Positions 1,208-4,345 of a stretch of DNA of 32,986 nt are shown one piece after another (the stretch's first letter is position 1; each line of letters opens with the position of its first letter). The DNA comes from an uncultured bacterium. Lineage in GTDB: Bacteria; Bacillota; Clostridia; Oscillospirales; Acutalibacteraceae. A program made the position numbers and the translations under genes. The DNA lies in assembly GCA_949293385.1 (NCBI GenBank), contig CASFDQ010000083.1, positions 1-32,986 on the forward strand, written 5' to 3'. The notes beneath the pieces were generated by a model that was not told the origin of the DNA, did not search any database, and saw only the letters and a list, made by a program, of their open reading frames with translations.

Positions 1208-1949
1208 ATGAAAAAAATTTTATCGCTTATAATGTGTAGCATTACTGCTTTGTTTTTGTTCATGTTCAAGCTCTGACCTTGCGTCGGTAATTAAAGACGG
1301 AGTGCTTGTTGTAGGTGTTACCGAATATGAGCCTATGGATTATCGTGACGGCGACGGTAATTGGGTAGGCTTTGACGCTGACCTTGCAAAGCTTACTGCC
1401 GAAAGACTTGGTGTAAAAGCGGAATTCGTAATAATCAACTGGGAAGAGAAGGTCGATAAGCTAACGGCTAAAGATATTGACTGTGTGTGGAACGGATATA
1501 CCGTAAACGATATTGATAAGGTAAGTTTTTCTGATGCTTATGCAAAAAATTCTCCGGTTCTCGTTGTACGCGGTGATAAGGCTGATGTAATCAAAGCTAC
1601 CGATGATCTTGACGGTCTTTCGGTCGCCTATGAAAAAGGTTCGTCATCCGAGAGGATTGCCGAAGATTTAAAATGTGATTTTAAAAAGCAGCCTCTCTCG
1701 CTACAAAAAGAAGCGCTCGATTCGGTAAAGAACGGAGAAGCTGACGCCTGTATCGTCGACAAAACTATTTTCGATTCCCTTGTTCACTCCGATTTAGTTT
1801 CGGTTTATACCTTTGAGAGCGAAAAATTTGCCGTTGGATTTAGAAAAGGCTCCGATCTCACAGAGGAGGTAAACCGAATACTGAAAGAACTTAAATCCGA
1901 GGGTATTCTTGATGCTTTGGCCGATAAATATAAAGTTGAATTAACCTGA
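1208..1949 (+). pseudogene. Amino-acid ABC transporter binding protein, canonical order, frameshifted in signal peptide
   Basis: A good ribosome site (GGAGG, 1197-1201) precedes the ATG at 1208, which opens MKKILSLIMCSITALF, a lipoprotein signal peptide that then runs into a TGA at 1274. In the +1 frame the sequence continues CSCSSSDLASVIKDG, a plausible lipobox Cys and mature N-terminus, and then a complete SBP_bac_3 domain to the TGA at 1949. Removing one base near the T5 run at 1253-1257 restores a normal lipoprotein of about 246 residues. Lobe order is canonical: LVVGVTEYEPMDY, GNWVGFDADLA, hinge VLVVRGDKAD, lobe II VAYEKGSSSERIA, GEADACIVD, return FAVGFRKGSDL. Where the family normally has an Arg binding the ligand carboxylate (TxxR before the PY motif), this protein reads TVNDIDKVSFSDAY, without Arg and shortened by about two residues. 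The GTG at 1302 could start a 215-residue form without a signal peptide. It may be a decaying gene or a sequencing error. Confidence 0.65.
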
Positions 1950-1953
1950 TAAA

Positions 1954-1983
1954 ACAAAAAGCAGAAATTTTTCTGCTTTTTGT
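1954..1983 (+). terminator. Intrinsic terminator after the first binding-protein gene
   Basis: ACAAAAAGCAGAAA (1954-1967) pairs with the downstream TTTCTGCTTTTTGT (1970-1983), giving a stem that ends in a T-run directly after the TGA at 1949. Its right arm touches the -35 box of the next promoter. Confidence 0.8.
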
Positions 1984-2011
1984 TGACTTTTGGGGATTTA
2001 TGATTTATAAT
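1983..2011 (+). promoter_or_regulatory. Sigma-A-type promoter for the permuted binding protein and transporter operon
   Basis: TTGACT (1983-1988) and TATAAT (2006-2011) are separated by 17 bp, 45 bp upstream of the ATG at 2057. It follows the preceding terminator immediately, so the second binding protein, permease and ATPase form an independent transcription unit. Confidence 0.85.
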
Positions 2012-2056: not shown

Positions 2057-2836
2057 ATGAAAAAAATTATTTCTTTACTGATGGTTGCTGTTATGTGTTT
2101 ACTTTGCTTTGCGGGATGCGGATCTTCCGAGAAGATCGTTGTAGCCGAGAAGGGTTCTGCCGGTGAAACCGTCGCAAAGGATCTTGAAGGCTATTCCTAC
2201 ACCGCTGTTGACACGCAGAACAAGGCTCTTATCGAAGTTAAATCCGGAACCGCCGATGCTGCTATTGTTGACTACGTTCTTTCTATCGGTTCTATCGGTG
2301 AAGGTACCGACTTTGAAGACCTCAAGGTAGAGGGAGAGGGCTATAATTCCGAATACTACGGTATCGCTTTCAGAAAGGGATCTGACGTAACTGCTAAGGT
2401 CAACGAAGCTATCAAGACCTTAAAGGATAACGGTAAGCTTGCTGAGATCGCTTCTACATACAAGCTTCAGGATCGCATCGTCGCTACCGACTCTTTTGAT
2501 CCCTTTAAGCAGGACGAGGAAAACTCCGATTGGGAATACATCAAGAACAAGGGTGAGCTTATCATCGGAATCACTTACTTCGCTCCTATGAACTACGAAA
2601 ACGATAAGGGCGAGCTCGTAGGCTTTGAAACCGAATTCGCAAAAGCTGTTTGCGAGATACTCGGCGTGACCCCCAAGTTTGTTGAGATCAACTGGGGTGC
2701 AAAGGAAACCGAGCTTCAGGCAAAGAACATCGATTGCATTTGGAACGGAATGACCATCGATGAAGAAAGAAAGCAGAATATGAGTATTACCATTCCTTAT
2801 ATGGAAAATCAGCAGGTAATGGTTGTTAAAAAATAG
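2057..2836 (+). CDS. Circularly permuted amino-acid ABC transporter binding lipoprotein
   Basis: The ATG at 2057 is chosen over the in-frame ATG at 2000 because GGAGGAG (2043-2049) sits in front of it and it opens a lipoprotein signal peptide, MKKIISLLMVAVMCLLCFAG, with Cys21 as lipid anchor; the product is 259 residues. The mature protein holds every part of an SBP_bac_3 domain in rotated order. Lobe II comes first (about 26-90: KIVVAEKGSAGETVA, GTADAAIVD). Then the normally C-terminal segment (about 96-137: YNSEYYGIAFRKGSDV, NEAIKTLKDNGKLAEIA). Then a linker (138-165), and last the normally N-terminal half of lobe I (166-259: GELIIGITYFAPMNY, GELVGFETEFAKAV, NGMTIDEERKQ with Arg238, IPYMENQQVMVVKK). 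The stop falls where a normal protein would cross the hinge into lobe II. D72 and R238, the expected ligand amino and carboxylate contacts, are both kept. Codon use is biased as in well-expressed genes, arguing against decay. It is followed 15 bp later by the permease. Confidence 0.8.
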   Translation: MKKIISLLMVAVMCLLCFAGCGSSEKIVVAEKGSAGETVAKDLEGYSYTAVDTQNKALIEVKSGTADAAIVDYVLSIGSIGEGTDFEDLKVEGEGYNSEYYGIAFRKGSDVTAKVNEAIKTLKDNGKLAEIASTYKLQDRIVATDSFDPFKQDEENSDWEYIKNKGELIIGITYFAPMNYENDKGELVGFETEFAKAVCEILGVTPKFVEINWGAKETELQAKNIDCIWNGMTIDEERKQNMSITIPYMENQQVMVVKK

Positions 2837-2851
2837 TATCGGAGATTTTGA

Positions 2852-3505
2852 ATGTCAGGCCCATCCTTTCTAAACGTAACGATAGACCTGCTCACGGGAT
2901 TTCTCGATAACCTAGAACTGTTTGGTCTTACGCTGTTGTTTTCACTTCCGCTTGGACTTATTGTGACCTTTGGCTCTATGTCTAAATTTAAACCTTTAGC
3001 TTGGTTCACGAAGGTATTCGTCTGGATCATCAGAGGTACGCCTCTGATGCTCCAGATTTTTGTGGTATATTACGTACCGGGTTTGGTTTTTGAAGTGCCG
3101 ATGAGAGAAAGAATGCTTGCGGCCATTATAGCGTTTGTTATAAATTACTCCTGTTATTTCAGCGAGATATACAGAGGCGGCATCGAAAGCATCTCAAAAG
3201 GTCAATATGAAGCAGGTCAGGTTCTCGGAATGACTAAAACGCAGACCTTTTTCAGGGTCGTTCTGCTACAGGTAGTAAAGAGGATCCTGCCTCCGATGAG
3301 TAACGAAATTATCACCCTTGTCAAGGATACCTCTTTGGCAAGAATTATTGCCGTTCCCGAAATCCTTATGTGCGCAGAAAGATTTACGGGAAAGGGACTT
3401 ATCTGGCCGCTTTTCTACACGGCGGTATTTTTCCTTGTTTTCAATGGCGTTTTAACCTTACTTTTCGGATATCTTGAGAAGAAATTAAACTATTTCAGGA
3501 GTTAA
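2852..3505 (+). CDS. Amino-acid ABC transporter permease (HisM/GlnP family)
   Basis: This 217-residue membrane protein has the layout of polar amino-acid permeases: an N-terminal helix (FGLTLLFSLPLGLIVTFG), the family motif RGTPLMLQIF near residue 60, and the cytoplasmic EAA loop GGIESISKGQYEAGQVLGMT that docks on the ATPase. About five membrane helices are visible. It begins at ATG 2852 behind GGAG (2841-2844), 15 bp after the permuted binding protein, and ends 3 bp before the ATPase gene, so the three are co-transcribed. As a single permease gene it probably acts as a homodimer. The exact amino acid carried cannot be read from the sequence. Confidence 0.9.
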   Translation: MSGPSFLNVTIDLLTGFLDNLELFGLTLLFSLPLGLIVTFGSMSKFKPLAWFTKVFVWIIRGTPLMLQIFVVYYVPGLVFEVPMRERMLAAIIAFVINYSCYFSEIYRGGIESISKGQYEAGQVLGMTKTQTFFRVVLLQVVKRILPPMSNEIITLVKDTSLARIIAVPEILMCAERFTGKGLIWPLFYTAVFFLVFNGVLTLLFGYLEKKLNYFRS

Positions 3506-3508
3506 AAA

Positions 3509-4306
3509 ATGGCTTTATTTGAAGTTAAAAACATAATTAAAAGCTTCGGTAAAGCCGAGGTTTTAAAGGATATTTCCTTTGAGCAGGAGGAAGGCTCGGT
3601 TCTTTCGATAATAGGTTCATCCGGTAGCGGAAAAACTACGCTTCTCCGCTGTATAACCGGTCTTGAAACTGCAGACAGCGGTTTTATAAGGGTAGAAGAT
3701 CGAGTACTGTTCGATAGCTCTTCTACCGTCAAACTTACCGGTGAAGAAAAGAGACTTAATCAGCTTACTACCGGACTCGTATTTCAGTCTTTCAACCTTT
3801 TTCCGCAGTATACGGTTTTGGATAACGTAATGCTTGCCCGAAAGCTTACTTCTGTAAAAGAGTTAAAGAGAAAGAAGGCTAGCAAGGCCGAGATCGCCGA
3901 AGCTACCGAAATGCTCAAAGAGGAGGCTATATCCCTTATTGAAAGCGTCGGCCTGTCCGATAAGCTAACGTATTATCCCTGTGAGCTTTCCGGAGGCCAG
4001 CAGCAGAGAGTTGCTATTGCAAGAGCCTTGATGCTTTCTCCAAAAATTCTATGCTTTGACGAACCTACCTCCGCGCTTGATCCTCAGATCACCGTAGAAG
4101 TGCTTAAGGTTATAGCAAATCTTGCGAAGCAGGGCAGAACTATGGTCATAGTAACGCACGAAATGGGATTTGCCAAAGAGGTTTCTGACAAGATAATATT
4201 TATGGACGACGGAATCATTGCCGAGGAGGGTACACCCGAGCAGATTTTTGATAACCCTAAAACGCCCGCACTTCGTGCCTTTTTAAGTTCTATGATAAAA
4301 GTATAA
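3509..4306 (+). CDS. Amino-acid ABC transporter ATP-binding protein (GlnQ/HisP family)
   Basis: This 265-residue ATPase powers the importer. All nucleotide-binding motifs are present: Walker [10 protein letters not shown] (36-44), Q-loop Gln93, signature LSGGQQQR (160-167), Walker B ILCFDEP (180-186) and the H-loop His217 (VTHEMGF). GlnQ-type proteins are usually about 240 residues. The extra length is mostly a Lys/Glu-rich stretch at about 112-142, between the Q-loop and the signature, in the helical subdomain that touches the permease. The start follows AGGAG (3498-3502). A terminator closes the operon at 4314-4335. I infer import of a polar or acidic amino acid, or cystine. Confidence 0.92.
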
Positions 4307-4313
4307 GATCAAA

Positions 4314-4345
4314 CCCCGAGTTTTTTAGCTCGGGGTATATCATTT
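4314..4345 (+). terminator. Intrinsic terminator after the ABC transporter operon
   Basis: CCCCGAG (4314-4320) pairs with CTCGGGG (4329-4335) around an 8-nt loop and is followed by an AT-rich tract. Confidence 0.75.

Follow-up and report, generated by a model that had tools for sequence, protein, structure and literature searches.

Natural circular permutation of a lipid-anchored ABC transporter binding protein has already been described for TpMglB-2 (Tp0684) of Treponema pallidum, for which the designation 'Type Ic' was proposed (PMC4990184). TpMglB-2 is a Type I (Cluster B) glucose binder that is permuted inside its N lobe, with the strand order of the C lobe unaffected, and its homologues come chiefly from treponemes and from Gram-positive bacteria, with many gut commensals among them (PMC4990184). 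Binding and conformational change were shown in vitro, and the authors raise a link with membrane anchoring (PMC4990184). The protein encoded at positions 2057-2836 of the window (the whole stretch of 32,986 nucleotides that we analysed) shares with TpMglB-2 a circular permutation and a lipid anchor, the latter being predicted here from a lipobox. It differs in being of the family-3 amino-acid type and in belonging to a family whose cuts map to lobe II, at several sites and with likely repeated origins. It matches Pfam SBP_bac_3 (PF00497) alone and no Type I sugar-binding family, and its cut maps to lobe II next to hinge 1 rather than inside the N lobe. With TpMglB-2 known, a permuted ABC binding protein is not new in itself; what appears to be new is the occurrence in family-3 binders, and the surprise is recurrence at few sites. 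We recognised no report of natural permutation in family-3 amino-acid binders in the literature searched, a weak negative as few subscription papers were covered.

With canonical SBP_bac_3 or Type II binders (GlnH, HisJ, ArgT, TmArgBP) the window protein shares PF00497, both halves of the family, the Arg/Asp pair, a permease and an ATPase and, in the relatives studied here, a lipobox, whereas it differs in the order of its segments and in a predicted anchor on lobe II. GlnP-type permeases carry fused substrate-binding domains. A comparable arrangement was seen at L141, where a family-3 binding domain is followed in one chain and one ORF by a confirmed permease domain, and the ORFs of L139 and L140 are of similar length. 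All three (L139 1663-3246, L140 958-2457 and L141 1408-2940; 499-527 residues) begin with a GlnH-like domain permuted at hinge 1, lobe II first, whereas the window gene is unfused; the genome of L141 belongs to the window's own family.

The features of the locus are as follows.

1302..1949, forward strand: upstream SBP_bac_3 gene in canonical order (Pfam); its signal-peptide ATG at 1208 lies in a different frame than the body
1983..2011, forward strand: promoter-like site 5' of the permuted gene, matching the consensus at 11 of 12 positions (consensus match)
2057..2119, forward strand: signal peptide and lipobox, with Cys21 (codon 2117-2119) as predicted lipid anchor (sequence pattern)
2132..2485, forward strand: lobe II and then the C-terminal half of lobe I, residues 26-143 (profile, PDB alignments, secondary structure)
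2270-2272, forward strand: codon of D72, inside the segment of residues 26-143
2486..2509, forward strand: join of the old C-terminus and the old mature N-terminus, residues 144-151 (between two profile matches)
2510..2833, forward strand: N-terminal half of lobe I up to and including the hinge-1 strand, residues 152-259 (Pfam, phmmer, profile)
2768-2770, forward strand: codon of R238, inside the segment of residues 152-259
2852..3505, forward strand: ABC permease, BPD_transp_1 (Pfam PF00528; same gene order in relatives)
3509..4306, forward strand: ABC ATPase (Pfam PF00005; same gene order in relatives)
4313..4336, forward strand: terminator-like hairpin 3' of the ATPase (consensus match)

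The gene at 2057-2836 (forward strand, ATG to TAG) encodes 259 residues, and a longer ORF in the same frame starts at an upstream ATG at 2000. PF00497 was the sole Pfam family at E <= 0.001 and scored 106.4 bits against a curated cut-off of 26.4, with residues 169-259 matching positions 2-92 of 132, i.e., the front of the profile lies at the end of the protein. A phmmer search against PDB sequences found both halves in swapped order within single chains, e.g., 3hv1, whose residues 148-255 align with 39-146 of the window protein and whose residues 12-115 align with 157-259. Using a 267-position profile made from 30 canonical relatives, we mapped residues 26-143 to positions 145-266 and residues 152-259 to positions 25-132; the hinge positions 133-144, about a dozen, are absent. 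Both halves are therefore present once, as phmmer and the profile agree, and the protein reads signal peptide, lobe II, C-half of lobe I, N-half of lobe I in place of the canonical N-half, lobe II, C-half, which makes it a permuted variant and not a canonical member. The swapped order supports the natural circular permutation of an SBP_bac_3 protein, each segment occurring once, that the original prediction had put forward. The predicted join of the old termini was also found, although it is about 8 residues long (144-151) and not about 28 (138-165), the longer figure having counted in both ancestral tails. No NCBIfam model reached its cut-off for the protein, the best being TIGR01096 with 94.9 against 256.35 bits.

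Cys21 is invariant in 26 of 26 aligned sequences (the window protein and 25 homologues), and so are the proposed ligand contacts R238 and D72, which had been expected to be kept. In canonical members of the GlnBP/LAO kind the Asp binds the amino group of the ligand and the Arg its carboxylate. Across the wider alignment, Asp occupies profile position 194 in 118 of 119 rows, the remaining row having a gap, and Arg occupies position 111 in 31 of 37 canonical rows and, for the three permuted types defined below, in 38 of the 41 rows of type A, 19 of the 22 of type B and 5 of the 19 of type C. The other 14 of the 19 C rows, e.g., L078, L081 and L094-L097, mostly have Ile or Val in place of the carboxylate-binding Arg, which suggests a different ligand or binding mode. 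Pairwise dN/dS over seven pairs per type was, where finite, 0.05-0.11 for A, 0.07-0.24 for B, 0.075-0.24 for C and 0.09-0.20 for canonical genes, values to be read with dS about 1 or higher in many of the pairs; by the same measure the join between the halves is mostly faster-evolving.

The permease and ATPase genes lie close behind the permuted gene, in agreement with the operon originally proposed. A permease and an ATPase also follow in all 37 rows of type A and all 22 of type B, in 10 of the 12 C rows and in 28 of the 37 canonical ones; the C rows L090 and L102 have neither within the available stretch, and some of the canonical genes counted here head a series of SBP genes. The expression-type codons noted earlier were likewise recovered, as the G/C-ending share of two- and threefold codons is 0.62 in the permuted gene and 0.33-0.45 in seven other genes of the window; the highest share of the eight genes compared would fit high expression of a binding protein. 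Promoter-like sites numbered 8 in the region against 6.6 expected, and terminator-like hairpins 7 against 3.1, so that the two sites listed above count as consensus matches only.

An AlphaFold model computed from the alignment of 26 sequences gave one confident chain (pLDDT 89.9, pTM 0.82), and the permuted protein is predicted to fold into the usual two-lobed domain, as had been anticipated. In sequential structure searches the matches listed were amino-acid binders superposed over one lobe (82-89 columns, 1.2-2.0 angstrom, 30-38% identity), and whole-chain matches had a query TM of at most 0.48 among the 50 listed. For a permuted chain whose order none of the listed chains shares, a low whole-chain TM is to be expected; it is no proof of the fold. 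The top VIA-align match was PfVFT1 (5jkq, a Plasmodium Venus flytrap protein), with Z 13.1 over 141 residues (model 106-251). The match runs as if lobe I of this eukaryotic protein also went from C-half to N-half, which we treat as a putative lead. Taken together, we consider it probable that 2057-2836 encodes a predicted SBP_bac_3 lipoprotein with permuted halves and two lobes, likely the binding protein of the adjacent importer, with its anchor likely on lobe II.

Homologues with the same order, whose complete absence would have pointed to a one-off rearrangement, proved common. Of the 7,997 candidates that a protein search scored, 7,667 had E <= 0.001, and the best 120, which are 69-100% identical over 94-100% of the query, were examined: all 120 are permuted. 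In 80 loci taken from 509 confirmed relatives, the window-like permutation was found in 30, a second site in 18, a third in 2 and canonical order in 30; the locus titles are mostly Clostridia and Oscillospiraceae MAGs, many from ruminant gut. The original prediction had thus named one of several permutations, as three cut sites occur in at least two subfamilies. In type A, that of the window, the cut is at the hinge-1 strand (profile start/end 131-146/131-139 in the tree rows, with L088 at 152/141 and L098 at 136/125 as outliers). Type B is cut at 160-169/158-163, in the loop between the first helix and the second strand of lobe II, and type C at 194-210/201-203, between the third helix and the last strand of lobe II, shortly before hinge 2. 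These placements combine profile ranges with the secondary structure of the type A model, and their assignment to lobe II partly rests on the hinge positions of GlnBP, which we assume to carry over through the PDB alignments. Every cut seen maps to lobe II and none to lobe I, where a cut near the old C-terminus would shift only a short segment that profiles could miss.

A second subfamily came to light at L019, which carries a type A gene together with a GlnH-like SBP cut at the type C position. Searching 391 genomes of the class with the latter also retrieved 17 GlnH-like proteins cut at hinge 1 (L125-L141), so that this subfamily contains both A and C cuts. As for type A, the best-listed homologues of type C and of GlnH-like type C were permuted in 120 of 120 cases each. 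To estimate frequency in an unselected sample, we searched the window's genome and 25 others drawn evenly from the class (26 in all) with PF00497, and merged 71 rows over the cut-off into 65 genes. Eight of the 65 (the window gene, L156, L157, L153, L090, L130, L154 and L155), in 5 of the 26 genomes, are permuted; leaving out the window's genome, 7 permuted genes remain in 4 of 25. Order was called by close inspection of 16 stretches and for the rest, as canonical, from a forward profile match, with two genes (G018:C7 and G026:C7) of partial profile match left uncalled. L157 1016-1855 is a very divergent SBP_bac_3 protein on a long branch, seemingly lobe II-first although its first segment matches weakly (22 bits), and possibly represents a third subfamily with permutation.

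We built trees after restoring the segments to canonical order and excluding the columns at the cut sites. A 100-row tree contains 13 changes among the labels canonical, A, B and C, and a 91-row joint tree with the GlnH-like proteins (hand-picked rows) contains 19; in the latter, well-supported branches alone force at least 6 changes for A, 6 for C and 2 for B. A tree of permease and ATPase (80 rows), genes that are not rearranged, likewise shows 13 changes and forces at least 5 for A, 3 for C and 2 for B. A change may reflect the gain or loss of a permutation or a switch between orders, and genes can be swapped between operons, so the number of changes should not be read as the number of origins. 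Support is weak for many of the deep branches, and some rows are long-branched. In both SBP trees canonical rows (window 1302-1949 and L005 5164-5898) are nested in a mostly permuted group. In AU tests a single clade was rejected for the A core (p 0.0033, without three A rows on long branches), for C (p 0.0081) and for all permuted rows (p 0.0006); for B it was not rejected (p 0.318). Judged from these sequence trees, the order has likely been swapped repeatedly in the family.

How far could other explanations account for these observations? The assembly behind the window is a draft in 149 contigs, and a misassembly or one-off rearrangement, possibly of a dead gene, would have been conceivable. 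The order common to the 120 of 120 best-listed homologues makes this extremely improbable, as do permuted relatives in many assemblies, including the single-contig genomes G222, G348 and G193 (GlnH-like C-type L116, L119 and L120), and low pairwise dN/dS argues against a dead gene; shared order and low dN/dS together rule out chance or misassembly at 2057-2836. A single ancient permutation followed by shifts of the cut site and reversions to canonical order, in place of repeated permutation, deserves more weight, since a rejected single clade is not the same as a rejected single origin followed by losses, B as one clade was not rejected, and rows of all four labels (canonical, A, B and C) are close neighbours in one region of the trees, making direct switches or reversions possible. 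We nevertheless regard it as unlikely: the AU tests rejected one clade for the permuted rows as a whole as well as for C and the A core, the A and C cuts of the GlnH-like proteins stand apart from the window's subfamily, and the nearest canonical relatives of the A-type subgroups partly differ.

A plausible route to such proteins would begin with neighbouring SBP gene copies fusing in frame, the old C-terminus of one to the old mature N-terminus of the next; the outer halves would then be lost while the signal peptide and lipobox of the first copy were retained. Almost all of the old C-terminus and of the old mature N-terminus is retained at the join, as expected from such a fusion. SBP genes stand next to each other in the window and in L005, L009, L064 and L036 (three in the last), and no fusion intermediate was seen among the loci examined. 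As the old termini would lie together on lobe I, a loop of lobe II could be opened, and a cut there would put the anchor on lobe II instead of lobe I. Median leader lengths were 19 residues in canonical rows (n=36), 5 in A (n=37), 9 in B (n=22) and 5 in C (n=12), and 4 in the best-listed 120 A homologues; the Cys was located with a simple lipobox pattern, which puts it in the wrong place in some proteins (leader lengths in A range from -15 to 32). With a short leader and a moved anchor, the protein may sit nearer to its otherwise ordinary permease or face it in a different orientation, and we infer that the moved anchor may change docking or be selected. We give slightly less than an even chance to a broader reading in which family-3 binders of Clostridia keep being re-permuted (a dozen or more changes at three loops, always in lobe II, with the anchor moved and the leader shortened) along a selected route. 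That permutation is neutral is a serious possibility too, though less likely than not: tandem duplication and deletion would often produce it, the fold would tolerate it and the moved anchor would be inconsequential. Consistent with neutrality, the permeases are ordinary relatives of those serving canonical SBPs, and the ligand residues (in A and B) and selection resemble the canonical state; cuts confined to lobe II and a short median leader are not obviously predicted by it, though fold tolerance alone might produce them.

To our knowledge, natural circular permutations are usually reported singly. Here one family in one bacterial class offers several orders at few sites and has close canonical relatives to compare them with (the best identity over the N-half is 67-83% in the 12 A rows listed), so that the origin of a permutation, the tolerance of loops for new ends and the side of anchoring in ABC importers become directly testable. 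Profile annotation labels the permuted proteins as ordinary binders, as the source names of the homologues illustrate, and they provide natural permuted scaffolds for biosensors. If true, recurrent selected permutation would be a way to change how a binding protein is seated over the permease, and nature's equivalent of the circular-permutation scans done in the laboratory.

Some of the neighbouring and related SBP genes have features of their own. The SBP gene upstream of the permuted gene (1208-1949) looks broken or misread: the first residues of its signal peptide are out of frame, the frame of the body has no ATG, GTG or TTG before 1302, and there is a gap at the position of the ligand Arg, where the counterpart in L005 has Asp. 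L064 4784-5809, in canonical order, has about 40 extra residues inserted between positions 186 and 188 of the profile. At L036 5581-8050, from Spirochaetales, three canonical family-3 SBP genes stand in a row before one permease and ATPase.
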